Part shown: positions 1,674 through 20,420 of the stretch, piece by piece | Layout: every line of letters begins with the position of its first letter | Position numbering within the stretch: the first letter of the stretch is position 1 | Source: Acidimicrobiales bacterium | GTDB lineage: Bacteria; Actinomycetota; Acidimicrobiia; Acidimicrobiales; SKKL01 | Direction of reading: 5' to 3' | Assembly (NCBI GenBank): GCA_034521975.1 | Contig: JAXHLR010000006.1 | Span: 248,001-312,000 of the forward strand | DNA: 64,000 nucleotides | Notes under the pieces: model-generated | What the model saw: the letters and a program-made list of their open reading frames with translations, nothing else | Databases searched by the model: none | Told to the model about the DNA's origin: nothing | Position numbers and translations under genes: made by a program

Positions 1674-2384
1674 TTAAGCCCGTCCGGCGCGGCGCACCGA
1701 CGACGCCTCGGCGCTCGACGAGTCAGACCGCAGACCCTGAAGGCCTCGAAGGATCACGTCCACCACCTCGTCGGCGGCTTCTTTGGGCGAGGAGCAAAGG
1801 GTGGAGATCACTTCGGCTCGTGAAAAGTCGCGACCGACACCAGCCATGACCCTGGCGAGGGCCGCGGTGTCCACCGGGGAGATGTCGCCGCGCTCGATCG
1901 CGAGGTCGAGCAGACACCGTGTGATCCCCACGATGTAGTCGGAGTGCGCTTCGTACATGTCCCTGCCGGCGGGGATCGACGCGAGGTCGCGGGTCACTGC
2001 CGGAGTCACCGAGACGACGGCGACCGTCGCGGCACGCAGGTACGAACGGATCGCGTCGAGCGGGGCCATGTCCTCGTCGAGGGCACTGGCCGCGCGGCGA
2101 CCGACCCGCCAGAGGTTGCGGTCGACCACCATCAGGACCAGCTCGTCGCGGCTGGGTGCGAGCTCGTACAGCGTGCGCAGCGAGCAGCTCAACCGCGACG
2201 CGATCTCAGCCATCGTCAGGTGGGTGAAGCCGTTCTCGAAGAGGCCTCCGAGCTGGTCGAGGATCTCCCGCTGGCGGCTGGTGAGGGCTCGCTCGCGCTC
2301 ACGGTCGAGCAACGGGGCAGGCCGGGGGACCGACTGCAGCCGAGCCTGGAGGTCGGCCCTGGTGGTCGGGGTGCCGGTGCTCAC
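1674..2384 (-). CDS. TetR-family transcriptional regulator of the carboxylase divergon
   Basis: A 236-aa protein with an N-terminal helix-turn-helix of TetR type at about residues 45-90 (FENGFTHLTMAEIASRLS then SLRTLYELAPSRDELV) and an all-helical ligand/dimer domain. The GTG start overlaps the stop of the AtuA-like gene by GTGA, so it is the last gene of a translationally coupled carboxylase operon. In the Pseudomonas acyclic terpene (atu) system the operon also encodes a TetR repressor, AtuR. The perfect palindrome at 7794-7809, at the head of this operon, is the best candidate operator; an acyl-CoA ligand is likely. Regulator identity is clear; target and ligand are inferred. Confidence 0.85.
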   Translation of the reverse strand: MSTGTPTTRADLQARLQSVPRPAPLLDRERERALTSRQREILDQLGGLFENGFTHLTMAEIASRLSCSLRTLYELAPSRDELVLMVVDRNLWRVGRRAASALDEDMAPLDAIRSYLRAATVAVVSVTPAVTRDLASIPAGRDMYEAHSDYIVGITRCLLDLAIERGDISPVDTAALARVMAGVGRDFSRAEVISTLCSSPKEAADEVVDVILRGLQGLRSDSSSAEASSVRRAGRA

Positions 2385-4141
2385 CGAATGAGCACAGCAG
2401 GCAGGTCGACCACGCGGGCCCGGAGCCACTCGCCGAGGCTCTTGGCCTGGCCGTCCTGGCGGGTCGACGCGGCGACCCCTTCTTCGAGCAGCCCCACGAT
2501 CACGAAGTTGAGGGACCGCAGGGCGGGCAACCGGTGACGCTGCACCTCCAGCTCGGCGGTTTCTGCCAGCAACAGCTTCAGCCGGTCGACGGTGAGGAAC
2601 TCGTCGAGCCAGGCCCACGCCTCGTCGCTGCGGACGAACACACCCAGGTTGGCGTTGCCGCCCTTGTCGCCCGAGCGGGCCCCGACCACACGACCGAGTG
2701 CGACACTGACCGTCTCCCCCGCGGGGGCTGGCAAGCTCGGGCCGGGTGCGGGCACGACCTCGACCGAGTCCTGCGGAGCTACCGACTCGATCACGGTCGC
2801 TCCCCCATCGAGCATCCGGACGTGCTGGGGGACCAGCTCGGCGGGGACGAGTGCCGGTCGGTAGACGCCGTAGGGGCTGCCGGCCGACGGGCCACCACCG
2901 ACCGCGAAGAACCCGGGGATGTTGGCCAGCGCCAGCTCGATCATTGCGTTGGACACCGCCCGGCCGACCTTCGACTCGTCGGGATCCTTCACGCTGATCC
3001 GCCACAGCGCCACGGCCTCCTCGTTCGTGGCCGGGTCGGCCTTGTCGGTGCGGACCAGCCTGGTGGTGACGCTCGCGAAGTCCTCGGGCCCGTAGCGGCA
3101 GGCGGCCCAGAACCCGGCCTCGACCACGGCGGCCTTGGCCTCGATGTCGAGCCCGGTGAGCGCGACCCGCAGATCGTTGCGGAACCCCCCGAGCTCGTTC
3201 ATCGCGACCTTCAGGGTCGTCGGCGGTGGTTCGCCCTTGGTGCTGCTGATGCGTACCCGGTCGGGTCCTGCCTCGCTCAGTTCGATGGTGTCGAACCGGG
3301 CGGTCACGTCGGGTCCGAGGTACGCGGGACCGGCGATCTCATAGAGCAGCTGGGAGGTGACCGTCCCGATCGACACCTGACCGCCGGTGCCGTCGTGCTT
3401 GCCGATCACCGTCGAACCGTCGGCGGCCACCTCGGCCCACGGGAAGCCTGGCCTGGTGAGGTCGCCGACCTCGGTGAAGAACGAGTAGTTGCCACCGGTT
3501 GCCTGCGCGCCGCACTCGATGACGTGGCCGGCGACGACCGCGCCGGCCAGCGCGTCCCAGTCGTCGCGCGCCCAGCCGTGGTGCCACGCGGCCGGTCCGC
3601 AGACCACCGCCGCGTCGGTGACCCTGCCGGTGATGACGATGTCGGCCCCCTGGCCGAGGGCGTCGACGATCCCCCAGCAGCCGAGGTAGGCGTTCGCGCT
3701 GATGAACCTGGAGGTGTCGCCGACCGGCTCACCCGTGTCGAGGTTCGCGAGGTCGACACCCGCCTCGATCAGCTCGTCGAGGCGCGGGAGCAGGTTGTCG
3801 CCGCTCACATAGGCGATCTTCGGGGCCAAGCCGAGCCGGTCGGCGACCTCGGCGACCGCCTCGGCGCAGCCGTCGGGGTCGAGCCCACCGGCGTTGGACA
3901 CCACCTTGATGCCCCGATCGAGGCAGGTGCGCATGACCTGCTCCATCTGGGTGACGAAGGTCCGAGCGAAGCCACCGCGAGGCCGTCTGGCCTGGGTGCG
4001 GGCGAGGATCAGCATGGTCAGCTCGGCGAGCCAGTCGCCGGTGAGCACGTCGATGGGGCCGCCCTCGACCATCTCGGCAGCAGCCGAGAGCCGGTCGCCG
4101 TAGAAGCCGGAGCAGTTGGCGATGCGGACCGGATTGGTCAC
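2381..4141 (-). CDS. Acyclic terpene utilisation AtuA family protein (DUF1446), fused to its small C-terminal domain
   Basis: A 586-aa protein. The first ~450 residues are the DUF1446/AtuA domain: N-terminal RIANCSGFYGDR, central NAGGLDPDGCAEAV and GRVTDAAVV. A C-terminal ~100-residue module starts at VALGRVVGARSGDKGGNANLGVFV; it is encoded separately in some bacteria and fused here. AtuA is needed for citronellol/geraniol breakdown in Pseudomonas, but its reaction is not established. The GTG start overlaps the biotin-carboxylase stop and the stop overlaps the TetR start, both by GTGA. Context says it serves the same acyl-CoA carboxylation pathway. Confidence 0.88.
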   Translation of the reverse strand: MTNPVRIANCSGFYGDRLSAAAEMVEGGPIDVLTGDWLAELTMLILARTQARRPRGGFARTFVTQMEQVMRTCLDRGIKVVSNAGGLDPDGCAEAVAEVADRLGLAPKIAYVSGDNLLPRLDELIEAGVDLANLDTGEPVGDTSRFISANAYLGCWGIVDALGQGADIVITGRVTDAAVVCGPAAWHHGWARDDWDALAGAVVAGHVIECGAQATGGNYSFFTEVGDLTRPGFPWAEVAADGSTVIGKHDGTGGQVSIGTVTSQLLYEIAGPAYLGPDVTARFDTIELSEAGPDRVRISSTKGEPPPTTLKVAMNELGGFRNDLRVALTGLDIEAKAAVVEAGFWAACRYGPEDFASVTTRLVRTDKADPATNEEAVALWRISVKDPDESKVGRAVSNAMIELALANIPGFFAVGGGPSAGSPYGVYRPALVPAELVPQHVRMLDGGATVIESVAPQDSVEVVPAPGPSLPAPAGETVSVALGRVVGARSGDKGGNANLGVFVRSDEAWAWLDEFLTVDRLKLLLAETAELEVQRHRLPALRSLNFVIVGLLEEGVAASTRQDGQAKSLGEWLRARVVDLPAVLIR

Positions 4142-6132
4142 GATCCCTCCTCGGGTTGGTCGTCGGTGGCGGTCGCATCGAGCGGTTCGACGGCAAGCAG
4201 CACGTCGCCTCGCTGGACCTGGCTGGCGTCCTGCACGTTGACCTCGGTGACGGTGCTGGCGACAGGCGCGGTGATCGGGTGCTCCATCTTCATCGCTTCG
4301 AGCACGACGAGGACCTGGCCGGCCACCACCTCGTCGCCGACTGCGACGCGCACGTCGCGGACCACCCCCGCCATGGGTGCTTCGAGGCCTCCGGCCGTGG
4401 CGATCGATTCGGGGGCCGAGAACCGGGGGGAGATGTAGAGGGTGACAGTCCCGGACCGGCACTGGACGTGCAGCCGGTCGTCGATGTGGGTGACCCGGCT
4501 GGTGCTGCGATGCCGGTCGACCTCGACGTCGATGGCGTCGAGAGTCCAGCGGTGCACCCGCGCCTCCCCGCCGGAGCCGAGCCGGAACGAGCCGTCGCGC
4601 AGGGACTGGTAGGTGATCTCGACCGTCCGGCTGCCCACGGTGAACATCGTCTTTTGCGCCGGCAAGCGAGCGTTGCGCCAGCCGCTGGGCAGCCCGGCGA
4701 GGACCGGGGTGTTGGCCCGGTTGAGGCCCTGCAACCACAAGGCGGCGACGGTCGCCGCCTTTTCGAGGCCCTGATCGTCGAGGTCCTCGGGCACCGGGTC
4801 GACCCGATCGATGAAGTCGGTCGTGGTGTCACCGGCCAGAAAGGCGGGTTCGCGCAGGGTGGCCGCGAGGAACGACCGGTTCGTGATCATGCCGCCCAGG
4901 TGCAGGCGTTCGAGGGCCAGGGCCAGGCGGCCGGCCGCTTCGGCCCGGGACGGGGCGTGGGCGATGACCTTGGCGAGCATCGGGTCGAACTGCACCCCGA
5001 TCACCGAGCCGGCCTCGACGCCGGTGTCCCAGCGCACCGCAGGTTCGGCCGCGGGTTCGAACGCATCGAGGGTGCCCGCCACCGGCAGGAATCCCGCGGC
5101 GACGTCTTCGGCGTAGAGCCGGGCCTCGACGGCATGCCCGGACCAACCGATGTCGTGCTGCTCGTAGCCGAGCGGCTCGCCGGCCGCGATGCAAAGCTGC
5201 TCGCGAACGAGGTCGAGCCCGGTCACCGCCTCGGTGACCGGATGCTCGACCTGGAGGCGGGTGTTTACCTCGAGGAAGAAGAACTCGCGGGTGGCTTCGT
5301 CGACGAGGAACTCGACGGTGCCTGCCGACTGGTAGCTGAGAGCCCCGGCGAGGGCGAGCGCGGCCTCGCCCATCGCCTGGCGCATGGCCGGGTCGACGAC
5401 CGGCGACGGCGACTCCTCGATGATCTTCTGGTGGCGGCGCTGGATGGAGCACTCGCGCTCGCCGAGGTGCAACAGGTTGCCGTAGCGGTCGCCGAGAATC
5501 TGGATCTCGATGTGGCGGGAACGGGCCACGTAGCGTTCGAGGAAGATCCGGTCGTCGCCGAACGCGCCGGCGGCCTCGCGCTGGGCTGCCGCGACGGCCT
5601 CGTCGAGTTGGGCAGGGGCGTGGACGATTCGCATGCCCTTTCCGCCACCACCGGCGGCGGCCTTCACGAGCAGCGGGTAGCCGATGTCGCCAGCGTCGGC
5701 CACGACGTCGGAGGAGGGGAGCGTCGGGACCCCTGCTTCGACGGCTGCACGCTTGGCGGCGAGCTTGTCGCCCATCGCGTCGATCGCCACAGGCGACGGT
5801 CCGACCCAGAGGAGCCCAGCGTCGATCACCGCTGTGGCAAAGGCACCGCTTTCGGCCAGGAACCCGTAGCCAGGATGGATGGCTCCGGCGCCTGTACTGC
5901 GGGCGGCATCGATGATGGCTCGGGCATCGAGGTACCCGCCCGGGAGTCGTACCGCCTCGTCGGCGTCAGCGACGAAGGGTGCGCCGGCGTCGGCGTCGGA
6001 GTAGACGGCGATGCAGCGCATGCCCATCGATCGCGCGGTCCGAAAGATCCGCCGGGCGATCTCGCCTCGGTTGGCAACGAGCAGCGCGGTGATGGGTGTG
6101 GTGGCCGGTGTGGTGGTCGCTCCCTCGTTCAC
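4138..6132 (-). CDS. Acyl-CoA carboxylase alpha chain (biotin carboxylase plus biotin carboxyl carrier)
   Basis: 664 aa. The N-terminal biotin-carboxylase half starts TALLVANRGEIARRI, has the ATP-grasp glycine loop KAAAGGGGKGMRIV and the active-site block FLEVNTRLQVEHPVTE. The last ~75 residues are a biotinyl domain with AMKM, placing biotin on Lys ~615. This one-chain A/BCCP layout is that of MccA, AtuF/LiuD and actinobacterial acyl-CoA carboxylases. It carboxylates biotin with ATP and bicarbonate for the beta chain encoded just upstream. The GTG start overlaps that gene by GTGA. The substrate (geranyl-, methylcrotonyl- or another acyl-CoA) cannot be told from sequence; the AtuA neighbour favours a branched or isoprenoid acyl-CoA. 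Confidence 0.93.
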   Translation of the reverse strand: MNEGATTTPATTPITALLVANRGEIARRIFRTARSMGMRCIAVYSDADAGAPFVADADEAVRLPGGYLDARAIIDAARSTGAGAIHPGYGFLAESGAFATAVIDAGLLWVGPSPVAIDAMGDKLAAKRAAVEAGVPTLPSSDVVADAGDIGYPLLVKAAAGGGGKGMRIVHAPAQLDEAVAAAQREAAGAFGDDRIFLERYVARSRHIEIQILGDRYGNLLHLGERECSIQRRHQKIIEESPSPVVDPAMRQAMGEAALALAGALSYQSAGTVEFLVDEATREFFFLEVNTRLQVEHPVTEAVTGLDLVREQLCIAAGEPLGYEQHDIGWSGHAVEARLYAEDVAAGFLPVAGTLDAFEPAAEPAVRWDTGVEAGSVIGVQFDPMLAKVIAHAPSRAEAAGRLALALERLHLGGMITNRSFLAATLREPAFLAGDTTTDFIDRVDPVPEDLDDQGLEKAATVAALWLQGLNRANTPVLAGLPSGWRNARLPAQKTMFTVGSRTVEITYQSLRDGSFRLGSGGEARVHRWTLDAIDVEVDRHRSTSRVTHIDDRLHVQCRSGTVTLYISPRFSAPESIATAGGLEAPMAGVVRDVRVAVGDEVVAGQVLVVLEAMKMEHPITAPVASTVTEVNVQDASQVQRGDVLLAVEPLDATATDDQPEEGS

Positions 6133-7781
6133 AGCCGGAACACCCCATAGCTCTCGGTTCCCTCGATCGCCTTGTTGCGCACGACCGAGAGGCAGAGCGC
6201 GAGCACCGTGCGTGTGTCGCGTGGGTCGATGATCCCGTCGTCGCTGATCGCACCGGTGGCTCGGAGTGCGAGCGAGCCCTCCTCCTGGATGGCTTCGACC
6301 ATCTCGGCCACCTTGGTGTCCTCCTCCTCGTCGAAGGGCACACCGTCGCGTGCCGCCTGGCCTCGCCGGACGATCGACATGACCCCGGCGATCTGCTTGG
6401 GGCCCATCACCGCGATCTTGGCCGTCGGCCACAGGAACGTGAAGCGGTTGCCGAACGCCCGGCCAGACATGCCGTAGGTGCCGGCGCCATATGACGACCC
6501 GATGATGACGGTGAGGTGCGGAACCGTCGAGGCGGTCACCGCGTTGATCATCTGTGAGCCCTTCTTGATGATCCCACCGGCCTCGAAGTCGCGTCCGACG
6601 ATGTAGCCGGTGACGTTCTGCAGGAAGAGCAGGGGGACGTCGATCTGGTTGCAGAGCTGGATGAAGTGAGCTGCCTTTTCGGCGGACTCGGGGTAGATCA
6701 CCCCGTTGTTGCCGAGGATCCCGATGGGGTACCCGTGGATCGAGGCCCAGCCGCACACCATCGATCGCCCGTAGCGGGGCTTGAACTCCTCGAAGCGAGA
6801 GCCGTCGACGACCCGGGCGATGACGTCGCGCACGTCGACGGGCTGTTTCAGATCGCGGCTGACGATCCCGAGCAGCTCCTCGGGGTCATAGATCGGGGGA
6901 TCGGGACGAAACGTCGGGTCGGGCCCGGCCTTGCGCCAGTTGAGGTGCTGCACGACCTCGCGGCAGGTGCGCAGCGCGTCGAGCTCGTCGACCGCGTAGT
7001 AGTCGCCGAGGCCGGAGACCTCGGCGTGCAGGTCGGCACCCCCGAGCGTCTCGTCGTCGCTCTCCTCGCCGGTGGCCATCTTCACCAGTGGCGGTCCGGC
7101 GAGGAAGATCTTGGACTGCTCCTTCACCACGATGACGTAGTCGGAGAGGCCCGGCTGGTAGGCGCCACCCGCGGTGGAGGATCCGAAGACCACGGCGATG
7201 GTGGGGATCTCCATCTTGGACAGCTCGATCAGCTCGTAGAAGAAGCGGCCGGTCTCGGCGAAGTGGTCGACCTGAACCCGGCGACCACCTCCATCGCCGC
7301 CACCTTCGGTGTTCACCCGCAGGTCGGCTCCGGCGGACTCGACGAAGCTGACATAGGGCATCCGGTTGTCGCGCGCGATCTCGAGCGCACGGCTCCACTT
7401 CTTCGCGGCGTAGGGGGTGAGCGCCCCCCCGAGCACCGACGGGTCGTTCGCGAGGATCACGCACTCGGTGCCCGCGATGACGCCGATGCCGATGATCATC
7501 CCGCCGCCGATGGTGTACGCCGACTCGTACGCGGCCAGCGGGCTGATCTCAAGGAACGGCGTGTCGGGGTCCAACACGTTGGCGATGCGCTCGCGCACCG
7601 GCAGCTTGCCCCTGGACCGCAGCCGCTCCATCCGGCTCGGCCCCCCGCCGGCTTCGGCCTCGTCAAGCAGCTCGTCGATGACCGCGAGCTGTTCCTGCAT
7701 GTCGGAGCGGTTCTTGGCGAAGTTCTCGCTCGTCGTGTCGAGCGTCGAGCGGATCGGTGCCGCGAGCATCGTCGGGTTCAT
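6129..7781 (-). CDS. Acyl-CoA carboxylase beta chain (carboxyltransferase)
   Basis: 550 aa with both crotonase-like carboxyltransferase halves. N-terminal signs are RERIANVLDPDTPFLEISPLA, an SAGADLR block and GSSTAGGAYQPGLSDYV; C-terminal signs are NNGVIYPESAEKAAHFI, LLFLQNVTGYIVG and SSYGAGTYGMSGRAF. It moves CO2 from carboxybiotin to the acyl-CoA and pairs with the alpha chain. It is first in the leftward operon. The ATG at 7781 has no Shine-Dalgarno (the preceding bases are pyrimidine-rich), while a -10 element ends 7 nt upstream, so the transcript is probably leaderless. Length and motifs match MccB/LiuB/AtuC-type subunits. Confidence 0.93.
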   Translation of the reverse strand: MNPTMLAAPIRSTLDTTSENFAKNRSDMQEQLAVIDELLDEAEAGGGPSRMERLRSRGKLPVRERIANVLDPDTPFLEISPLAAYESAYTIGGGMIIGIGVIAGTECVILANDPSVLGGALTPYAAKKWSRALEIARDNRMPYVSFVESAGADLRVNTEGGGDGGGRRVQVDHFAETGRFFYELIELSKMEIPTIAVVFGSSTAGGAYQPGLSDYVIVVKEQSKIFLAGPPLVKMATGEESDDETLGGADLHAEVSGLGDYYAVDELDALRTCREVVQHLNWRKAGPDPTFRPDPPIYDPEELLGIVSRDLKQPVDVRDVIARVVDGSRFEEFKPRYGRSMVCGWASIHGYPIGILGNNGVIYPESAEKAAHFIQLCNQIDVPLLFLQNVTGYIVGRDFEAGGIIKKGSQMINAVTASTVPHLTVIIGSSYGAGTYGMSGRAFGNRFTFLWPTAKIAVMGPKQIAGVMSIVRRGQAARDGVPFDEEEDTKVAEMVEAIQEEGSLALRATGAISDDGIIDPRDTRTVLALCLSVVRNKAIEGTESYGVFRL

Positions 7782-7787
7782 GAGGAG

Positions 7788-7822
7788 AAGGTATTGCGGT
7801 AATCCGCAAAGGTCAATATTAT
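7788..7822. promoter_or_regulatory. Overlapping divergent promoters with one shared palindromic operator
   Basis: Rightward promoter: -35 TTGCGG (7794-7799), exactly 17 nt, -10 TATTAT (7817-7822), with the enoyl-CoA hydratase ATG 9 nt later. Leftward promoter on the minus strand: -35 TTGACC (7811-7816), exactly 17 nt, -10 TACCTT (7788-7793), with the carboxyltransferase ATG 7 nt later. A perfect inverted repeat, TTGCGG-TAAT-CCGCAA (7794-7809), lies in the leftward spacer and covers the rightward -35. One bound dimer would block both. The only regulator in the unit is the TetR protein at 1674-2384, so this is its likely operator. The elements are read directly from sequence; the binding partner is inferred. 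Confidence 0.75.
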
Positions 7823-7830
7823 CCTGTGGG

Positions 7831-8628
7831 ATGATCACCGACACACCCGACCCCTCGCCCGTGCGGGTCGAGGTCGCTGACGGGGTAGCCACCATCACCC
7901 TGGCCGACCCCGACAACCGCAACACGCTGACCCAGGCGATGATCGGCGCGCTGCTCGACGGGTTGGAGGACGCGAACGCCGACCCATCGGTGCGGGTCAT
8001 CGTGGTCACCAACGATGGCCGGGTCTTTTGCGCAGGCGCCAACCTCAGCGAGCAGTCAGGTGCACAGCCTGGCGCGAAGGGTGCACGCGGCTTTCCCGAG
8101 CTCCTGGGCGCGATCCAGACCTCGCCGACCCCGGTGGTGGGGCGGCTCGACGGGCACGCGGTCGCCGGTGGGGTCGGGCTCGCCGCAGCGCTCGACATCT
8201 CGATCGCCCGCGACGACGTGCTCCTCGGTTTCACCGAGGTTCGCGTCGGGGTGATCCCGGCGATCATCTCGGTGGTCTGTCTTCCCAAGATGCGACGGGG
8301 CGATGCGCTCGAAGCGTTCCTTCGGGGTCGGCGCTTCCCGGCGGCCGAGGCAGCCGAGATCGGCCTCATCAACAGGGCCGTCCCTGCGGCCGAGCTCGAC
8401 GCCGCGGTGGCCGAGGTCGTCGACGACCTGCGGCACGGCGGCCCGAACGCGCTCGCCGGGGCGAAGGCGCTCGTCAACGAGATCCCCTCCTTACCGATCG
8501 ACGAGGCGTTCCGCGTCACAGCGGCCCGTTCATCCGCGCTGTTCGGCACCAACGAGGCCGCCGAGGGGATGGCGGCCTTCCTGGAGAAGCGACGTCCGTC
8601 CTGGGCGCAGGCAGAGGAGGCGACATGA
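7831..8628 (+). CDS. Enoyl-CoA hydratase/isomerase family protein
   Basis: 265-aa crotonase-fold protein. The CoA/oxyanion segment FCAGANLSEQ is followed by DGHAVAGGVGLAAALDIS, and the acidic FTEVRVGVIPA and later AAEIGLINR blocks match hydratases. In the Atu and Liu pathways a dedicated hydratase (AtuE/LiuC) acts on the glutaconyl-CoA made by the carboxylase, which fits its position opposite the carboxylase operon. The ATG at 7831 lies 9 nt after the -10, so the message is probably leaderless. The stop overlaps the next gene as ATGA. Exact substrate unknown. Confidence 0.88.
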   Translation: MITDTPDPSPVRVEVADGVATITLADPDNRNTLTQAMIGALLDGLEDANADPSVRVIVVTNDGRVFCAGANLSEQSGAQPGAKGARGFPELLGAIQTSPTPVVGRLDGHAVAGGVGLAAALDISIARDDVLLGFTEVRVGVIPAIISVVCLPKMRRGDALEAFLRGRRFPAAEAAEIGLINRAVPAAELDAAVAEVVDDLRHGGPNALAGAKALVNEIPSLPIDEAFRVTAARSSALFGTNEAAEGMAAFLEKRRPSWAQAEEAT

Positions 8629-9452
8629 CCGTCGATGTGAAGCGCGTGGCCGCGGATCTTGCCGCGGAGCAGGAGGTGCTCGATGCGGTGGTGTCGGCCC
8701 TCGACGACGACCAGTGGCGCCTCGACACACCGAGTGCCGGCTGGACCATCGCGGATCAGATCGGCCACCTCACCTACTTCGACGGCGTCGCCGCCCAAGC
8801 CATCGAGGACCCGCAAGGCTTCGCCGCCAGTCGCGACGAGCTGATGGCGGCCTCGCTCGACGGCGGCGCGGACGCGGCGGAGGACTTCATGCTCGGCAGG
8901 TACCGCGCCATGGCTCCGCCCGAGCTCCTCGCCGCCTGGCGGGACAACCGCAGCCGCCTCGCCCGTGCTGCCGCGGGACTGAGCGACGGCGACCGGATCG
9001 AGTGGTACGGCCCGTCGATGGGTGCCAAGTCGTTCCTCACCGCCCGGTTGATGGAGACCTGGGCGCACGGCCAGGACGTTCTCGACGCCGCGAGGAGCGC
9101 GGGTGTCCACGCGCGGCGCGAGCCCACCGATCGGCTTCGCCACATCGCGCAGCTCGGTGTGATCACCCGGGCGTGGTCGTACCTCAACCGGGGCCTGGAC
9201 GTGCCCGAGGACGAGGTGCGCGTCGAGTTGGAGGCCCCGTCCGGTGACACCTGGACCTGGGGTCCTGACAACGCGACCGATGTGGTCCGCGGGCCGGCCG
9301 AGGACTTCTGCCTGGTCGTCACCCAGCGCCGCCACCCGCACGACACGCGCCTAGCGGTCCAGGGCGACCTGGCCCGCGACTGGCTCGCTCACGCCCAAGC
9401 CTTCGCCGGTCCACCCACCGAAGGCCCCGTCGCCACCTCCCTACCCGAATGA
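8625..9452 (+). CDS. TIGR03084-family metal-binding protein (DinB/mycothiol-maleylpyruvate isomerase-like)
   Basis: 275 aa. The N-terminal half is a DinB-like four-helix bundle: LDDDQWRLDTPSAGWTIADQ, then IGHLTYFD, and later METWAHGQDVLDA. The conserved histidines probably bind a divalent metal. A C-terminal ~80-residue SCP-like part follows (LEAPSGDTWTWGPDN). Relatives commonly sit beside acyl-CoA carboxylase/AtuA genes in actinomycetes, as here, but no reaction is established. The start is coupled to the hydratase stop by ATGA, so this is the second gene of the rightward transcript. Confidence 0.75.
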   Translation: MTVDVKRVAADLAAEQEVLDAVVSALDDDQWRLDTPSAGWTIADQIGHLTYFDGVAAQAIEDPQGFAASRDELMAASLDGGADAAEDFMLGRYRAMAPPELLAAWRDNRSRLARAAAGLSDGDRIEWYGPSMGAKSFLTARLMETWAHGQDVLDAARSAGVHARREPTDRLRHIAQLGVITRAWSYLNRGLDVPEDEVRVELEAPSGDTWTWGPDNATDVVRGPAEDFCLVVTQRRHPHDTRLAVQGDLARDWLAHAQAFAGPPTEGPVATSLPE

Positions 9453-9459
9453 GGACACC

Positions 9460-10608
9460 ATGCGTACCGACGTGACCGACATGCTCGGCATCGAGTTCCC
9501 GATCTTCGCCTTCTCGCACTGCCGCGACGTGGTCGCTGCGGTGTCGAAGGCCGGCGGTCTCGGGGTCCTCGGTGCCGTGTCGCACACGCCCGAGCAGCTC
9601 GAGATCGACCTCGACTGGATCGAGGCCGAGATCGGCGACCGGCCCTACGGTGTCGACCTCATCGTGCCCGCGAAGTACGCCGGTGACGAGACCGGTGGCT
9701 ACACCATGGACGACGTCCGCGCGCTGATCCCGCCCGCGCACCAGGAGTTCGTCGAAGACATCCTCCGCCGCTACTCGGTCCCCGACCTGCCCGAGGATGA
9801 GGACCCTGGCGGAGCTGGGCTGGACTTCAGCGACAAGGTGCACGTTCCGTTCTCTGCGTCCTCGGCTGGCCCACAGCTCGAGATCACCTTGGCCCATCGT
9901 GCCGCGTTCGTCGCCAACGCGCTGGGCCCGCCTCCGCAGTTCCTCATCGACCGGGTGAAGGAGGAGGGTCGGCTCGTCGGTGCCTTGGCCGGTAAGGCGG
10001 TTCACGCCGAGCGCCACGTCCAGGCCGGTGTCGATATCATCATCGCCCAGGGTTACGAGGCGGGTGGCCATACCGGAGAGATCGGATCCATGGTCCTCAT
10101 CCCCGAGGTGGTCGACGCGGTCGCGCCGGTCCCCGTGCTGGGTGCTGGTGGTATCGGTCGGGGCCGCCAGATGGCCGCGGCGATGGCCCTCGGCGCGCAG
10201 GGCGTGTGGTGCGGTTCGGTCTGGCTCACCACCGACGAAGCCGAGACTCAGCCAGTGGTGAAGGAGAAGATGCTCGTCGCCACCTCCGACGACACGCTGC
10301 GCTCGCGCTCGCTCACCGGCAAGCCCGCCAGGATGCTCAAGTCGGCCTGGACCGAGGAGTGGGAGCGGTCCGACACCCCAGAACCGCTCGGCATGCCGCT
10401 CCAGCCGATCCTGGCGTCGCGTGCGCAGCGGCGCATCAGCCGGGGCGCGTTCACCGCTGGTTCGGATGCTGAGAAGCTAGCCAACTACTTCGTCGGACAG
10501 ATCGTCGGCACCATGAACCAGCGCAAGACCTCGAGCCAGGTGGTGTTCGAGATGCTCGACGAGTTCATCGAGACCGTCGAGCGTCTCGGCCGCCTGCTCG
10601 AGAGCTGA
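9460..10608 (+). CDS. Nitronate monooxygenase / 2-nitropropane dioxygenase-like flavoprotein
   Basis: 382 aa, TIM-barrel FMN enzyme of the NMO/NPD family. It starts DVTDMLGIEFPIFAF, has GVLGAV in the first barrel strands, the phosphate-binding GAGGIGRGRQMAAAMALGAQGV, and the histidine-containing segment QGYEAGGHTGEIGSM that corresponds to the active-site region. The start follows GAGGACACC, 7 nt after the previous stop, so it completes the rightward transcript. NMO-like proteins in CoA-catabolic clusters often have no nitronate role and may act as flavin reductases or isomerases of unsaturated acids. Family call firm, reaction not. Confidence 0.83.
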   Translation: MRTDVTDMLGIEFPIFAFSHCRDVVAAVSKAGGLGVLGAVSHTPEQLEIDLDWIEAEIGDRPYGVDLIVPAKYAGDETGGYTMDDVRALIPPAHQEFVEDILRRYSVPDLPEDEDPGGAGLDFSDKVHVPFSASSAGPQLEITLAHRAAFVANALGPPPQFLIDRVKEEGRLVGALAGKAVHAERHVQAGVDIIIAQGYEAGGHTGEIGSMVLIPEVVDAVAPVPVLGAGGIGRGRQMAAAMALGAQGVWCGSVWLTTDEAETQPVVKEKMLVATSDDTLRSRSLTGKPARMLKSAWTEEWERSDTPEPLGMPLQPILASRAQRRISRGAFTAGSDAEKLANYFVGQIVGTMNQRKTSSQVVFEMLDEFIETVERLGRLLES

Positions 10609-10647: not shown

Positions 10648-12198
10648 CTACCCGGCCGCGAGGACGGCGTCGATCAGGTGCGGGCCCGGTTCGTTGAACG
10701 CCCGGGCCAGCGCGGTGTTGAGCTCGTCGGCCGTGGTAGCGGTGACCGCGTCGACGCCCATGCTGCGAGCCAGTCCCGCGAAGTCGAGGTCGGGGCGGCT
10801 GAGGTCGAGCATGTCGAGCGCCTTCGGGCCGCCGGCGCCGGCGCCCACCCGGTTGAGCTCCATGTTCAAGATGGCATAGGCCCGGTTGGTGAAGACGATG
10901 GTGGTCACATCGAGCCTCTCACGAGCTTGGGTCCACAACGCCTGGAGCGTGTACATGGCGCTGCCGTCGGCCTCGAGGCACACCACCGGACGATCGGGGC
11001 ACGCCAGGGCGGCTCCGGTGGCGAGGGGGATGCCGATGCCGATCGAGCCGCCGCAGTTGGTCAGCCAGTCGTGAGGCGGGCAGCCGGCGGTGGCTCCTGC
11101 GGTGAACAGGCCCGACGTGTTGGCCTCGTCGGCGACGATGGCCCCTTCGGGCAGCAGCGCCCCGAGGGTGAGCGCGACCGCCTCCGGTGTGAGAGCACCG
11201 CCCGGGAGGTCGGGACGGGCAGCGGCGGGCCGGGTGATGTCGTGGCTGGCGCCGAGGCGGTCGGCGAGGTGGGTCAGCGCCTGGATGGCGTCGTCGCCAC
11301 CTTCGGCGAGCACATGCACCTCACAGCCCTCGGGCACCAGGTCGCTCGGCTTGTCCGGGTAGGCGAAGAACGACACCGGCGAGGGGGCCTCGACGAGGAC
11401 GAGGTGGCGGGTCCCTTCGAGCTGGGCGAGGGCCATCTCGCCGAGGTAGGGGATGCGATCGACCGCTGGGATCCCCGCACCGCGCTGGAGTCGTGCCGGG
11501 AAGGTCTCGGCCATGAGGCGGGCCCCGGTGGCCGCAGCCACCCGCGCCGCGGCGACGAGCCCGTCCTCGCGCGTCGCGCGACCTCCGAGGAGCAGCACGG
11601 CAGGCTCACCGCCGCTCAACGCCTTGGCCACTGCCTCGACGGCGTCGTCCCCGACGATGGATCGAGCCGGTGGCGCCTTGGGTGTTGCGGGGGCGGCACC
11701 TTCGTTCCACGACACGTCGGCGGGCAGCACCAGCGTGGCCACCTGGCCTGGTGGGGTGGAGGCAGCAGCCACTGCATCGGCCGCATCGGTCGCGAGGTGC
11801 TTGGTGCTGGTGCTGCGCCGGTACCAACCCGATACGTTGCGGGCCACTCCCTCGATGTCGGATTGGAGCGGCGCGTCGTAGCGCTCGTGGTAGGTGGCGT
11901 GGTCACCCACGATGTTGACCACTGGCGTGTTGGCCCGCCGGGCGTTGTGCAGGTTGGCCAGGCCGTTGCCGAGACCGGGCCCGAGGTGCAGCAGCGTGGC
12001 GGCCGGGCGGTCGGCCATGCGGCCGTAGCCGTCGGCGGCGCCGGTGATCGCGCCTTCGAACAGGCCGAGCACCGCCCGCATCTCGGTGACGTCATCGAGG
12101 GCGGCGACGAAGTGCATCTCGGAGGTGCCGGGGTTGGTGATGCACACTTCGACCCCGGCGTCGGCGAGGGTGGCGATGAGCGCTCGGGCTCCGTTCAT
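10648..12198 (-). CDS. Thiamine diphosphate enzyme, acetolactate synthase large-subunit-like
   Basis: 516 aa with the three-domain layout of TPP decarboxylases. The catalytic glutamate region is LGLFEGAITGAADGYGRM, the central domain holds AVLLLGGRAT, and the TPP/Mg motif runs from EADGSAMYT to NRAYAIL. It is shorter than true acetolactate synthase (~570 aa) and resembles the acetolactate-synthase-like/benzoylformate decarboxylase branch that condenses or decarboxylates 2-oxoacids. The ATG overlaps the stop of the GlcD-like gene (ATGA), implying a 2-hydroxyacid to 2-oxoacid to decarboxylation pairing, which is inference. Confidence 0.8.
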   Translation of the reverse strand: MNGARALIATLADAGVEVCITNPGTSEMHFVAALDDVTEMRAVLGLFEGAITGAADGYGRMADRPAATLLHLGPGLGNGLANLHNARRANTPVVNIVGDHATYHERYDAPLQSDIEGVARNVSGWYRRSTSTKHLATDAADAVAAASTPPGQVATLVLPADVSWNEGAAPATPKAPPARSIVGDDAVEAVAKALSGGEPAVLLLGGRATREDGLVAAARVAAATGARLMAETFPARLQRGAGIPAVDRIPYLGEMALAQLEGTRHLVLVEAPSPVSFFAYPDKPSDLVPEGCEVHVLAEGGDDAIQALTHLADRLGASHDITRPAAARPDLPGGALTPEAVALTLGALLPEGAIVADEANTSGLFTAGATAGCPPHDWLTNCGGSIGIGIPLATGAALACPDRPVVCLEADGSAMYTLQALWTQARERLDVTTIVFTNRAYAILNMELNRVGAGAGGPKALDMLDLSRPDLDFAGLARSMGVDAVTATTADELNTALARAFNEPGPHLIDAVLAAG

Positions 12199-13448
12199 GC
12201 TGTCTCCTTCCCACCATCGCCGAGGAGCGTGGCCGGGTTCATGATGCCGGTGGGGTCAAAGGCTGCCTTGATGCGGCGCATGAGCGCGACCTTGGCTGGG
12301 TCTTCGAGATCGAGGAAGTAGCTGCGCTTGGCGGTTCCGATGCCGTGCTCTCCGGAGATGGCACCACCGAGCGACAGCCCGATGGAGAACAGCTCGGAGA
12401 GGGTGGCCGAGCGCACCTCGGTGTCGGGCTGGAACACCGAGAGGTGGACGTTGCCGTCACCGGCGTGACCGCACCCGGCGATCAAGGTGCCGGTTCGCTC
12501 GGCCAGGGCGGTCACCTCGGCCATGAACGTGGCGATCGACGCCCTGGGCACCACCACGTCGATGATGTCGTGGGCGCCCGCGGCCTTGGCGAGCCAGAAC
12601 GCCTTCTCGCGGGCTTGGATGAGCTGGGTGCCGCTCGCCGGTGGCAGCACGTACACGTCGATGGCGCCGAGGGTGCTCATCAGCTCGGCAACCGACTGCA
12701 CGTCCTCGTCGAGGCGGTCGGCGTGGTGGTCCTCGAGCATCACGACCAGGTAGGCGAGCGCCGTGTCCTTCACCTCGTCGGAGATGCCCAGGTCCATGCC
12801 GGCCCGGGCGCTCATGGCTGCCAGGGTGCCCTTGTCGATGTACTCGAGGATGAGCGGGTCGACGCCGCTGGTGATGACCTTGGGCACTGCGGTCATGACC
12901 TCGTCGAGGCTGCGGAACGGTGCGAGCAGCGTGGCGGTGTTGGCGGGGCGGGGGTAGACCCGCAGCGTGGCCTCGGTGACCAGCGCCAGGGTTCCCTCAG
13001 AACCGATGATGAGCTGGGTGAGGTCGTAGCCCGTGGAGGACTTCACATAGCGCCCTCCGGTGCGGATGACCTCGCCGCCGGGGAGCACGGCTTCCAGGCC
13101 GAGCACCTGGTGGCGGGTGACACCGTACTTCACGGCGCGCATGCCGCCGGCGTTGGTGGCGACGTTGCCGCCGAGGCTGGCGCTGTACTCACCAGGGAAC
13201 ACCGGGTAGATCAACCCGTGCGCGGCGAGCACGGTGTCGAGCTCTTGGAGGGTGACGCCGGGTTGGACCACCGCCACGTGGTTGTCGGTGTCGACCTCCA
13301 CCACCTCGGCCATGCGTTCGAACGACACCACGATGCCGCCTGCCACCGGGATGGCGGCTCCCGACAACCCTGTGCCGCTGCCCCTGGCGGTGACGGGGAT
13401 GGTGTGCTCGACGGCAAGGCGGAGCACCTCGGCCAAGCCTCGATCCAC
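12195..13448 (-). CDS. FAD-linked oxidase, GlcD/D-lactate dehydrogenase-like, apparently short at the N-terminus
   Basis: 417 aa. The FAD-binding segment IPVTARGSGTGLSGAA begins within the first 20 residues. The C-terminal FAD-oxidase domain has GCGHAGDGNVHLSVF and GEHGIGTAKR. Typical relatives are 450-480 aa with about 40 more residues before this motif. The only usable start is GTG at 13448. In-frame codons upstream (encoding PPVVGRS just before the GTG) look homologous to the family but run into the end of atpC without a start. So the gene seems to have lost its 5' end next to the atp operon; whether it still folds is unclear. It is coupled by ATGA to the TPP enzyme gene. Confidence 0.78.
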   Translation of the reverse strand: MDRGLAEVLRLAVEHTIPVTARGSGTGLSGAAIPVAGGIVVSFERMAEVVEVDTDNHVAVVQPGVTLQELDTVLAAHGLIYPVFPGEYSASLGGNVATNAGGMRAVKYGVTRHQVLGLEAVLPGGEVIRTGGRYVKSSTGYDLTQLIIGSEGTLALVTEATLRVYPRPANTATLLAPFRSLDEVMTAVPKVITSGVDPLILEYIDKGTLAAMSARAGMDLGISDEVKDTALAYLVVMLEDHHADRLDEDVQSVAELMSTLGAIDVYVLPPASGTQLIQAREKAFWLAKAAGAHDIIDVVVPRASIATFMAEVTALAERTGTLIAGCGHAGDGNVHLSVFQPDTEVRSATLSELFSIGLSLGGAISGEHGIGTAKRSYFLDLEDPAKVALMRRIKAAFDPTGIMNPATLLGDGGKETA

Positions 13449-13492: not shown

Positions 13493-13885
13493 CTAAGCCG
13501 AGAGCCCGCCGGCGACCTGCAGGCGAACACGGGCCCGACGCAGCGCCGCTTCGGCGGTGACATCGTCGAGGTGCTCGCGGTTGGCCTCGACCCGCTCCTC
13601 GGCTGACCTGGCGCGGGCCACGTCGATCTCGCCGGCCATCTCGGCGGCGTCGGAGAGGATCGTGATCCGGTCATAGGCGCACTCGACGAAGCCCTCGTGC
13701 ACCGCCACGGACTCTTCCTTGCCGCCGGGGAACACGATGCGCACCGGGTGGATGGCGAGCGTGCCGATGAAGGGGATGTGCCCGGGTTGAAAGGCGATGT
13801 CGCCACCGGTGGTGCGGGCGATGACCATCTCGGCTTCGCCCGAGAGGAGGATCTTCTCCGGGGAGACGAGCTCGACCTGGAGCAT
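13493..13885 (-). CDS. atpC: F1Fo ATP synthase epsilon subunit
   Basis: 130 aa. An N-terminal beta-sandwich (MLQVELVSPEKILLSGEAEM, GDIAFQPGHIPFIGTL) and a C-terminal helical hairpin rich in A/R/E are as in bacterial epsilon. It is part of the rotor central stalk and inhibits or couples ATP hydrolysis. Last gene of the atp operon, 2 nt after atpD. Confidence 0.95.
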   Translation of the reverse strand: MLQVELVSPEKILLSGEAEMVIARTTGGDIAFQPGHIPFIGTLAIHPVRIVFPGGKEESVAVHEGFVECAYDRITILSDAAEMAGEIDVARARSAEERVEANREHLDDVTAEAALRRARVRLQVAGGLSA

Positions 13886-13887
13886 GA

Positions 13888-16311
<2,424 letters not shown>

Positions 16312-16312
<1 letters not shown>

Positions 16313-17949
16313 CAGTCACCTGCGCCATCGGCTCGCGACACCTCTTCTTCGGGCAGGATGCCTTCGCGACGGCCACCGGCCTGACGTGTCCGGGCTTCGC
16401 CCTGCTCTTCGGCCTCGGGCTCCTCGACATCGAGGACCGAGGGCTGGAACTGGTCGACGAAGGCTTCGACGGCGGCGACGAAGGCGTCCTCGTCGGGGAC
16501 GACGCCGTTGTCACGGACGGCGCTGACGACATCGGCGTGGCGGGACCGGAACCACTCGAGCAGCTCGGACTCGAAGCGCCGGACATCGTCGAGCGGGATC
16601 GGGTCGAGATAGCCGCGGGTGCCGGCGAAGATGCTGATGACCTGCTCCTCGACCGCCATGGGCGAGTTGAGCCCCTGCTTGAGCAGCTCGGTGAGGCGGT
16701 ACCCACGGTCGAGCTGAGCCTGGGACACCGCGTCGAGCTCGGAGCCCAACGAGGCGAACGCCTCGAGCTCGCGGAACTGGGCGAGGTCGCCCTTCATGGT
16801 GCCGACGGCGGTCTTCATGGCCTTGATCTGGGCCGCGCCGCCCACCCGTGACACCGACTGGCCGACGTTGATGGCAGGCCGTACACCGGACTTGAACAGG
16901 TCGTCCTCGAGGAAGATCTGGCCGTCGGTGATGGAGATGACGTTGGTGGGGATGTAGGCGGCGATGTCGCCGGCCTTGGTCTCGATGATCGGCAGCGCGG
17001 TGAGCGACCCGGCACCGAGCTCGTCGGAGAGCTTCGCGGCCCGCTCGAGCAACCGGCTGTGCAGGTAGAACACATCGCCGGGGTAGGCCTCGCGGCCCGG
17101 TGGGCGGCGCAGCAGCAGCGACATCTGGCGGTAGGCCTCGGCCTGCTTGGACAGGTCGTCGTAGATGGCGAGGGCGTGGTCGCCGTGGTCCATCCAGTGC
17201 TGGCCCATGGCGCATCCGGCGTAGGGGGCCAGGTACTTGAACGGCGCAGGGTCCGAGGCGGCCGCGACGACGACCACCGTGTAGTCCATGGCCCCGTGCT
17301 CGTCCAGGGTGGCGACGGTTTGGGCGACGGTGGACGCCTTCTGGCCGATGGCCACGTAGACGCACTTCACACCGAGACCCTTCTGGTTCAGGATCGTGTC
17401 GACCGCGACCGAGGTCTTGCCGGTCTTGCGGTCGCCGATGATGAGCTCTCGCTGGCCACGACCGATGGGGATCATGGCGTCGATGGCCTTGATGCCGGTC
17501 TGCAGCGGCTCGTGCACGGGCTGGCGGCCCATGATGCCGGGGGCCTGGACCTCCATGCGGCGGGTCTCGGGGTCGGCGAGGGCACCCTTGCCGTCGATGG
17601 GTTGCCCGAGGGCGTTCACGACACGTCCGAGCAGCGCGTCGCCGACCGGTACCGACAAGATGTCGCCGGTGGCGCGCACGGTCTGGCCCTCTTGGATCTC
17701 GTCGACCTCGCCGAGCACCACCGAACCGATGGAGTCCTCGTCGAGGTTGAGCGCCAGGCCCAAGCTGCCGTTCTCGAACTGCAGCAGCTCGTTGACCGCT
17801 GCGTTGGGCAGGCCCGACACGCGGGCGATGCCGTCGCCGACCTCGATGACCCGGCCCACCTGGGTGGACTCGAGCGACGGCGCGAACCCTTCGAGGTTGG
17901 ACCGCAGTGCGGCGGCGATGTCGGAGGTGTTGATGGTCAAGTCAGCCAT
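16312..17949 (-). CDS. atpA: F1Fo ATP synthase alpha subunit with charged C-terminal extension
   Basis: 545 aa. The non-catalytic P-loop is [14 protein letters not shown], followed by the [31 protein letters not shown] and [10 protein letters not shown] signatures. The family is normally ~505-515 aa. Here the chain continues for some 30-35 residues after the conserved DQFQPSVLD helix region with an acidic/Arg-rich tail ([16 protein letters not shown]). Alpha-tail extensions are known in some actinobacteria, including mycobacteria, where they restrain ATP hydrolysis; whether this one does is untested. Stop overlaps atpG. Confidence 0.98.
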
Positions 17950-17976
17950 AGGATCTCGTAGATCTCCTGCTCGGGC

Positions 17977-18507
17977 TCAGAATGCTTCGCGAAGCTGGTT
18001 GAGGCGGTGACGGATGCTGCCGTCGATGACGGTGTCTCCGATCTGGGTGACGACCCCGCCCAGGACGCTGGGGTCGACGATGACCTTCACGGTGACGTCG
18101 CGACCGAGGTTGGAGCTGAGCGCCTCGGCCAGTCGCTGCTGCTGGTCCTCGGTCAGTTCGACCGCCGCCCGCACCATGGCCACCTCGCGGCCGCTCTCGT
18201 GGGCGGCGCGCTGGACGAAGGCGTCGATGACGGCGGGGATCTCGTTGGACCGGCCGACGCCGACGAGCAGCGAGATGATGGCGACCGTGGTGGTGTCGGC
18301 AGCCGCACCGAGCAGATCTTCGACGATCTGCTGGCGCCGGGCGGCCGGCACCTGCGGGTCGGCGAGGGCACGCTGCAACTCGTCGGAGCCTTCGAGGGCG
18401 CGGGCCACACGGAACAGCTCGTCTTCGACGCGCGGGGTGTTGCCCTCGATCACGGTCACGGTGAAGATGGCATCGGCGTAGGCCGAGGTGGTCCGGTCTC
18501 CGGCCAT
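17977..18507 (-). CDS. atpH: F1Fo ATP synthase delta subunit (OSCP)
   Basis: 176 aa. Starts TSAYADAIFTVTV, has an N-terminal helical bundle and the C-terminal signature DPSVLGGVVTQIGDTVIDGSIRHRL (shown in part), classical for delta/OSCP. It links the peripheral stalk b subunits to the top of F1. ATG at 18507 was chosen as the family start; the upstream in-frame extension is not homologous. Unlike mycobacteria, delta is a separate protein and not fused to b. Confidence 0.95.
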   Translation of the reverse strand: MAGDRTTSAYADAIFTVTVIEGNTPRVEDELFRVARALEGSDELQRALADPQVPAARRQQIVEDLLGAAADTTTVAIISLLVGVGRSNEIPAVIDAFVQRAAHESGREVAMVRAAVELTEDQQQRLAEALSSNLGRDVTVKVIVDPSVLGGVVTQIGDTVIDGSIRHRLNQLREAF

Positions 18508-18544
18508 CACTGCCTCCCGTCGGGGGTCGGTCGGGAGCGGGTCA

Positions 18545-19243
18545 TCAGTTCCTGGACCCGACCTGGTTGATGTACTCGTCGATGAGACCTCGCTGGGCTT
18601 CGGCGTCGAGGCTGTTGCCGACGACCCGCTCAGCGGCCCCGACGGCCAGGGCGGTGACCTCGCTGCGCAGGTCGGCCAGGGCCTGGGCCTTGATCGACTC
18701 GGCGTCGGACTGGGCCTTGGCCCGGATGTCGGCCGCCTCGGCATCGGCTGCCGCGGTGCGCTCGGAGCGCAAGGCCTCGGCGGCCGCACGGGCCTCCTCG
18801 ATGATCCGGTTGGCCTCACCCTTGGCGTCGGCAAGCGAGGCCTGGTAGCTGGCCTGCTCGGCCTGGGCGTCGGTCTTGGCCTTCTCGGCGGCCTCGAGGT
18901 CGGTGCGGATGCGCTCGGAGCGGTCCTCCATCGACTTGGCCACGGCCGGGTAGGCGAACTTGAGGCCCAGCACCAACAAGATGGCGAAGGCGATCGAGAT
19001 CCAGATCAGCTCGTTGAGCTCGGGGAACACCGGGTTGGGTGCCTCGACGCAGGCCTCGGCCTGGCCCTCGAGCTCGTGCACGATGTCGGATTCGCTCATG
19101 CCGTCGGCACGGAGCTCTTCGGCCTCGAGGGCGACCTCGGCGACACATGAGCCGATGGACTCGGCGGCGTTTGCGGGGGATGCGAACCCGATGCTCGCAA
19201 GCATCAGGACCAGCACCCCCGCGAGGGCGGTACGGATTCGCAC
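18545..19243 (-). CDS. atpF: F1Fo ATP synthase b subunit with cleavable signal peptide and exported N-terminal segment
   Basis: 232 aa from a GTG with AGGAGC upstream. Residues 1-27 form a signal peptide (RIRTALAG, hydrophobic core, SPANAA cleavage site). Residues 28-77 form an acidic exported segment with two cysteines (33 and 65). A single membrane span lies at about 78-98, followed by a long charged coiled coil of Ala/Glu/Arg/Lys that ends VGNSLDAEAQRGLIDEYI. Textbook b subunits begin directly with the membrane helix. The peripheral-stalk role is certain from context and coiled coil; the exported part is unusual. Confidence 0.95.
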   Translation of the reverse strand: MRIRTALAGVLVLMLASIGFASPANAAESIGSCVAEVALEAEELRADGMSESDIVHELEGQAEACVEAPNPVFPELNELIWISIAFAILLVLGLKFAYPAVAKSMEDRSERIRTDLEAAEKAKTDAQAEQASYQASLADAKGEANRIIEEARAAAEALRSERTAAADAEAADIRAKAQSDAESIKAQALADLRSEVTALAVGAAERVVGNSLDAEAQRGLIDEYINQVGSRN

Positions 19244-19259
19244 GATGTGCTCCTGTGCT

Positions 19260-19559
<300 letters not shown>

Positions 19560-19582
19560 CTACCTGATACGGAGATCTCGGG

Positions 19583-19600
19583 CCTGCACCGGGGTGCAGG
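19583..19600 (-). promoter_or_regulatory. Hairpin in the atpB-atpE intergenic region
   Basis: CCTGCACC and GGTGCAGG form a perfect 8-bp inverted repeat separated by two bases, in the middle of the 111-nt gap between atpB and atpE. In transcripts this gives a GC-rich stem of 7 bp with a tetraloop. The c subunit is needed at about tenfold stoichiometry, so a stability or processing element here is plausible. No T-run follows, so a simple terminator is unlikely. Confidence 0.5.
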
Positions 19601-19640
19601 TGAGAACGGGACCCGGAGCCGCACGACCCCGGGGTGTTGG

Positions 19641-20420
19641 CTAGTGCTCGGGGTGGATGGCGCCACCGATGTAGACGCCGGCGAGCACGACGAAGATGTA
19701 GGCCTGCAGGAACGAGGCCAAGGCCTCGAACAGCCACACCCCGACGAGCATGGCGAAGGGGAAGGGGAGGAAGATGGCGTACCACTGCCCGACCCACAGC
19801 GAGGCGGACAGCACCGCGAAGGTGGCCAGCAGGATGTGGCCGGCCATCATGTTGGCGAAGAGTCGCACGGCGTGGCTGAAGGGCCGGATGAGGAAGGTCG
19901 AGACGAACTCGATGGGGGTGACCAGCACGTAGAGCGCCTTGGGCAGACCCGGCGGGAACAGCGAGTTCTTGAGGTAGCCGCCGAGGCCCTGGTGCTTGAC
20001 GCCCTGGAAGTTGAAGATCACCCAGATCAGCAACGCCAGCAGCAATGGGGTGGCCATGCGACCGGTGGCGGGCATCAGGATCGGTGGGATGACCTTGGCG
20101 ATGTTGTTCAAGAAGATGAACAGGAACGTCAGGGTGAGAAACGGCGTCCAGGCGAGACCCGACGGACCCATCGTCTGCAGGACCACGCCGTTGCGGACGA
20201 AGTCGACGACCGACTCGGCGAGGTTCTGCGACCCCGTCGGCACCAACGCCTTCTTGCGCCCGGCGTAGAGGAAGAAGCCGAGGATGAGCAGCACCGCACC
20301 GAGGTTGATCAGCACGACCTTGTTGATGGCCAGCGGGGTGCCCTCGAAGAAGATCTCGGGCCACTCGAAGAGGTGACTGATCGGCGGGAACGCGACTCCG
20401 AACAACACGGTCGTGGTCAC
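19641..20420 (-). CDS. atpB: F1Fo ATP synthase a subunit
   Basis: 259 aa, five to six membrane spans. The proton-channel arginine lies in RPFSHAVRLFANMMAGH; the helix before it (VTPIEFVSTFLIRPFSHAVR, partly shown) and the C-terminal LFEALASFLQAYIF span are typical. The start overlaps the AtpI-like gene by ATGA. It works with the c-ring for ion translocation. Confidence 0.97.
   Translation of the reverse strand: MTTTVLFGVAFPPISHLFEWPEIFFEGTPLAINKVVLINLGAVLLILGFFLYAGRKKALVPTGSQNLAESVVDFVRNGVVLQTMGPSGLAWTPFLTLTFLFIFLNNIAKVIPPILMPATGRMATPLLLALLIWVIFNFQGVKHQGLGGYLKNSLFPPGLPKALYVLVTPIEFVSTFLIRPFSHAVRLFANMMAGHILLATFAVLSASLWVGQWYAIFLPFPFAMLVGVWLFEALASFLQAYIFVVLAGVYIGGAIHPEH

Follow-up and report, generated by a model that had tools for sequence, protein, structure and literature searches.

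The 49-bp gap between two opposed operons in the window (the whole 64,000-nt stretch of DNA that was analyzed) is best read as an autoregulated TetR switch, in which TetR bound to a dyad at 7798-7823 would exclude RNA polymerase from the overlapping promoters of both operons, and we place the probability of this reading at about 0.78. The anatomy of the gap, the conservation of the dyad, its co-occurrence with the TetR gene and the conserved leaderless geometry of the leftward promoter can all be read directly from the sequences. The switch is of an ordinary kind for TetR; its operator family is new relative to the literature searched, in that a search thin on subscription-journal papers found no description of a GGTAA/TTACC TetR operator family. 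The dyad thus offers a concrete operator candidate for a TetR group that spans three phyla and takes in uncultured Acidimicrobiia and marine bacteria of the SAR86 type, in which regulation is little known, and it links that operator to a pathway with AtuA and acyl-CoA carboxylase whose substrate is uncertain.

Two opposed operons and the promoters between them

The leftward operon runs in the order carboxyltransferase, biotin carboxylase/carrier, AtuA-family protein and TetR, with each gene overlapping the next by 4 bp, and the hydratase, TIGR03084-like and nitronate monooxygenase genes are read rightward from the other side of the gap (Table 1). Among named relatives, those closest to the carboxylase come mostly from Acidimicrobiia metagenome assemblies, and a related carboxylase is used in branched-chain amino acid utilization. 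The first-pass annotation had considered these genes to be a catabolic unit encoding TetR as its own likely regulator, a proposal that the present analysis supports. The TetR protein is all-helical in its AlphaFold model (pLDDT 91.5) and its best Foldseek folds were TetR-family proteins, at modest TM-scores (~0.5-0.66, query-normalised); the N-terminal helix-turn-helix (HTH) and all-helical ligand domain predicted by the model are those of the TetR family. Beyond the unit, ORF translations indicated a thiamine-diphosphate-type enzyme and an FAD-linked oxidase on the minus strand at 10648-13448, situated between the unit and an ordinary group of minus-strand ATP synthase genes (13493-20420).

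Table 1. Coordinates of genes, promoter elements and candidate operator sites (positions in the window unless a locus is named)
Feature	Position	Strand	Basis or remark
TetR-family regulator, last gene of leftward operon	1674-2384	-	4-bp overlap; PF00440, E 5.8e-4, below Pfam cut-off
AtuA-family protein	2381-4141	-	4-bp overlap; PF07287, E 2e-161
Biotin carboxylase / biotin carrier subunit	4138-6132	-	4-bp overlap with carboxyltransferase gene; PF00289, PF02786, PF02785, PF00364
Acyl-CoA carboxylase carboxyltransferase subunit	6129-7781	-	PF01039, E 2e-128
Leftward -10 TACCTT	7793-7788	-	direct reading; 17 nt after -35, 6 nt before ATG 7781
Leftward -35 TTGACC (plus-strand GGTCAA)	7811-7816	-	direct reading
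Rightward -35 TTGCGG	7794-7799	+	direct reading; TTGCGG also in L118
Rightward -10 TATTAT	7817-7822	+	direct reading; 17 nt after -35, 8 nt before ATG 7831
Palindrome TTGCGG-TAAT-CCGCAA	7794-7809		present, judged coincidental; palindromic in arms only
Predicted TetR operator, wide dyad GGTAA-N16-TTATC (consensus GGTAA-N16-TTACC)	7798-7823		9/10 matches; 0.0002 of shuffles
Half-site GGTAA by leftward promoter	7798-7802	+	TTACC (minus strand) invariant, 27/27 aligned sites
Second half-site GATAA	7819-7823	-	position conserved; overlaps rightward -10; 4/5 matches here
Enoyl-CoA hydratase	7831-8628	+	PF00378, E 8e-47
TIGR03084 / mycothiol maleylpyruvate isomerase-like protein	8625-9452	+	TIGR03084, E 1.6e-93
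Nitronate monooxygenase-family protein	9460-10608	+	PF03060, E 8e-54
GGTAC-N16-GTACC site, L159	1329-1354		SRRTLY TetR; last half-site base changed
GGTAC-N16-GTACC site, L164	9592-9617		SRRTLY TetR; last half-site base changed
GGTAC-N16-GTACC site, L166	1281-1306		SRRTLY TetR; last half-site base changed

Direct reading placed both promoters inside the 49 bp that separate the leftward start codon (7781) from the rightward one (7831). The hexamers, the 17-nt spacers and the divergent overlap were exactly as the first-pass annotation had described them, with 7788-7822 being the correct span for the hexamers, and the short distances from each -10 to its ATG (8 nt on the right, 6 nt on the left) agree with its further suggestion that both promoters are placed for leaderless transcription. 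In dinucleotide shuffles of the gap, a TTG.../TAnnnT promoter at a leaderless distance turned up on the right side in 0.4% and on the left side in 0.9%, and never on both at once (0/5000), for a pattern that was framed only after the site had been seen. A strict sigma-70 consensus scan reported neither promoter, and TTGCGG matches the -35 consensus in its TTG alone. In leaderless promoters of actinobacteria, transcription begins at the start codon itself and the centre of a TAnnnT lies 7-12 bp ahead of that point. Leaderless messages are common in this group; in M. tuberculosis 22-26% of genes have them, according to how they are counted (PMC3898074). That geometry is present on both sides of the gap, with the starts themselves being predicted positions, and is kept on the left in orthologs.

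The two sides differ in how widely their geometry is shared. On the carboxylase side, TAnnnT lies 6-9 nt ahead of the start in 27 hand-picked actinobacterial orthologs, and TTGAC or TTG occupies the place of the leftward -35 in most hand-picked actinobacterial loci. In an unselected ortholog set, a leaderless -10 was found in most actinobacterial loci and was absent from several; it was also absent from several orthologs whose operon has no TetR gene (TetR-) and generally from the proteobacterial ones. Most actinobacterial orthologs therefore keep the leaderless geometry of the carboxylase side. The hydratase side has it in this genome and in two species from one related genus (L118 and L148), which keep TTGCGG-N17-TGTTAT-N8-ATG with the same spacings as the rightward promoter. 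The case for that promoter, with its poor -35, comes only from this genome and those two species.

A wide dyad and a smaller palindrome

The first-pass annotation had named TTGCGG-TAAT-CCGCAA as the operator on which one TetR dimer would shut both promoters. In favor of this idea, its perfect 6-bp arms lie over the rightward -35 and in the leftward spacer, the exact sequence is found once in the 3.3-Mb genome, and its 16 bp would suit a single dimer, for which operators of 15-17 bp are reported (PMC4150764). Set against this, ~4% of shuffles contain a perfect palindrome with 6-bp arms and a loop of 0-8, so the palindrome by itself is weak evidence, and comparison with relatives spoke against it. 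In none of the relatives examined, not even the closest, are the arms intact (0-4 of 6 positions pair), and TTGCGG-N4-CCGCAA is not kept upstream of orthologous carboxylase genes. In L118 and L148, of which the carboxylase is 85-86% identical and the divergent gene the same, TTGCGGTAATCTTCAG replaces the palindrome and one arm is lost, yet the wide dyad, TTGACC and the promoter spacings are retained. The palindrome was thus rejected as the operator on grounds of conservation, and we judge it very unlikely that a dimer on it controls both promoters. The real site appears instead to be the wider conserved dyad, with the small palindrome a coincidence inside it; a striking palindrome in a single sequence can mislead, and here cross-genome comparison exchanged a 16-bp candidate for an overlapping one of 26 bp.

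In Acidimicrobiia, Myxococcota and SAR86-type gammaproteobacteria, the dyad GGTAA-N16-TTACC recurs ahead of orthologous carboxylase operons, with its half-site centres 21 bp apart. Read on the minus strand, the copy in the window is GATAA-TATTGACCTTTGCGGA-TTACC, of which the right half falls inside the palindrome and the left half over the rightward -10. The right half lies within the spacer of the leftward promoter and overlaps the rightward -35, so that the dyad as a whole spans the leftward promoter's -35 and spacer as well as both rightward hexamers. Across the 27 aligned sites the left half is nearly as constant as the invariant TTACC, and conservation extends to a T located three bases inside the left half. 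Part of this conservation could reflect promoter constraint, because the dyad contains the leftward -35.

The left half-site reads GATAA in place of GGTAA in six loci, namely the window (7819-7823), L118, L148, L156, L022 and L124. GATAA was found in 4/4 loci that have a divergent start 7-8 nt beyond the half-site, and the G-to-A deviation supplies, on the other strand, the final T of the rightward -10, as if the half-site doubled as a -10. We regard this pattern as suggestive only, because two further GATAA loci have no such near start and three of the four near-start loci are close relatives. It bears on the possibility that the leftward promoter alone is real, in which case the hydratase arm would have its promoter somewhere else and the rightward hexamers would be a side effect of the operator half-sites. 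That TTGCGG makes a poor -35, that TATTAT overlaps a half-site, and that most relatives either place the hydratase farther along the main operon or have more distant divergent starts would all fit such an arrangement. However, TTGCGG-N17-TRTTAT-N8-ATG is retained in two species of a related genus, the half-site has turned to GATAA where a divergent start is 7-8 nt away, and a promoter any further upstream would fall inside the carboxylase gene. We consider a solitary leftward promoter unlikely, although it deserves some weight, and prefer two overlapping promoters. In six other loci from Myxococcota and gammaproteobacterial-type genomes (L028, L030, L032, L040, L042 and L044) the dyad likewise sits between divergent genes; the nearest divergent ORF there starts 4-32 nt past the half-site, and the divergent partners differ (hydratase, TIGR03084-like).

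Association of the dyad with the TetR gene

In order to compare operons with and without a TetR gene (TetR+ and TetR-), 150 bp was searched in a strict, automated and deduplicated count, in which a dyad of at least 9/10 matches was found in 23/27 TetR+ operons (25/27 if N17 is allowed) versus 0/19 TetR- operons (Fisher p = 4e-9, with loci taken as independent, which is only approximately true given their relatedness). The two TetR+ exceptions were L035, which has a 10/10 dyad farther upstream than the 150 bp searched, and L158, which has the variant AGTAA-N16-TTACT. In the first locus set, 21/23 TetR+ operons carried an N16 dyad of at least 9/10, the remaining two had an N17 dyad at 10/10, and none of the 24 TetR- operons had one. 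When spacers of 4-26 were scanned, the peak was at 16 alone, with no other length anywhere near it. Among relatives' genomes, all five with a close TetR ortholog have the dyad, one of these duplicating a locus already counted, and the others were all below 9/10. A class-wide search added further TetR+ loci, with the dyad present in all but one (L158) where the carboxylase start was covered. Some of this co-occurrence could be phylogenetic, because the presence of TetR and of the dyad could both mark one operon lineage.

The same comparisons bear on whether the dyad is real but read by another regulator, with the linked TetR acting elsewhere or through a different site, as might be imagined given that some catabolic units are under unlinked regulators. 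We find this very unlikely: the dyad accompanies the TetR gene, and is absent where that gene is absent, in three phyla, and the genome-wide scan revealed no other convincing dyad. The scan returned one further 1-mismatch site, which is chance level (a control pattern also gave 1), and a wider regulon was rejected on that basis. In addition, 26 orthologs spanning actinobacteria and SAR86-type bacteria all have SLRTLY as their HTH motif, as expected if all of them read one same half-site. Where the HTH reads SRRTLY, in a TetR type farther removed, GGTAC-N16-GTACC stands near the gene in three loci at the same spacing (Table 1), two of them adjoining a similar carboxylase/AtuA cluster. The linked TetR thus remains the favored reader of the dyad.

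No GGTAC-N16-GTACC was present in the DNA fetched for two other SRRTLY loci, nor any GGTAC- or GGTAA-type N16 site in that fetched for four loci with distant TetRs (L160, L161, L163 and L165). In L162, the TetR of the distant group (SLRTLYEIA) has a different upstream dyad, TTAAT-N18-ATTAA, at 9543-9570. A bolder generalization, which is possible but which we hold as doubtful, is that an operator code GGTAN-N16-NTACC is common to Acidimicrobiia, Myxococcota and SAR86-type bacteria, that the choice between GGTAA and GGTAC, at the last half-site base, depends on one recognition-helix residue (SLRTLY versus SRRTLY), and that the half-site here also serves a second leaderless promoter as its -10, such that one site and one polymerase choice would govern both arms.

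The proposed switch beside known systems

In the switch as we envisage it, a single acyl-CoA catabolic unit would have its two opposed operons driven by promoters that overlap almost fully, and both messages would, judging by promoter placement, have 5' ends at or very near their start codons. TetR, made from the last gene of the leftward operon, would bind 7798-7823 and repress. Since the leftward -35 and spacer and both rightward hexamers lie under the dyad, its occupancy should keep RNA polymerase off both promoters, and the two promoters should also sterically exclude each other's polymerase. Release of TetR would most likely fall to a pathway intermediate, probably an acyl-CoA thioester given the nature of the pathway. 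Of the earlier proposal that one site shuts both arms, the single site survives, as the one predicted operator overlaps both promoters; the palindrome named for it does not.

That a single dimer would suffice, as also proposed, is doubtful. TetR operators that take a dimer of dimers measure 28 bp (QacR), 32 bp (CgmR), 31 bp (Ms6564) and 22 bp (CprB), compared with 15-17 bp for single dimers (PMC4150764). The conserved 26-bp core exceeds the ~20 bp above which the dimer-of-dimers mode is expected, and at 26-28 bp the operator here fits the QacR-type subclass and not the single-dimer one. The length of the dyad therefore suggests by analogy that two TetR dimers probably sit on it, as for QacR, CgmR and CprB, although the half-site sequence differs from those of QacR-type operators.

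The closest parallel in gene content is the acyclic terpene utilization (atu) cluster of Pseudomonas, which likewise combines a TetR repressor (AtuR / RdmA) and its adjacent gene with AtuA, a two-subunit carboxylase (geranyl-CoA there) and an enoyl-CoA-type hydratase (PMC9973270). The position of the regulator gene differs: atuR and atuA diverge in Pseudomonas, and the TetR gene here ends the operon. AtuR binds two 13-bp inverted repeats, AGCAAGCGCTTGG and CCAAGCGCTTGCT, ~40 bp apart (PMC9973270). There was no match to AGCAAGCGCTTGG within 3 mismatches in the 49-bp gap; the nearest, at 7102, has 3 mismatches and falls within a gene, and an AtuR-type operator was rejected as absent from the gap. 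LiuQ, which together with the MerR-type LiuR regulates branched-chain amino acid utilization in proteobacteria, is a TetR like the regulator here and has been reported from betaproteobacteria only (PMC5343134).

For the promoters, the bidirectional acrA/acrR promoter of E. coli offers a comparison, in that AcrR, also of the TetR family, represses both RNAs, so that one such regulator serves two divergent promoters that can compete for polymerase (PMC12825309). There the two promoters share a -10 and their starts are 10-23 bp apart, whereas here complete promoters interlock, the predicted starts are ~48 bp apart and both messages are apparently leaderless. With separate -10 elements at 7788-7793 and 7817-7822, the gap falls outside the E. 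coli definition of a bidirectional promoter; in promoters of that class, competition has an effect only if one of the two sides is highly active (PMC12825309). If our reading is correct, two leaderless promoters that are probably not usable at once, under one repressor, would make this gap a compact natural case of polymerase competition.
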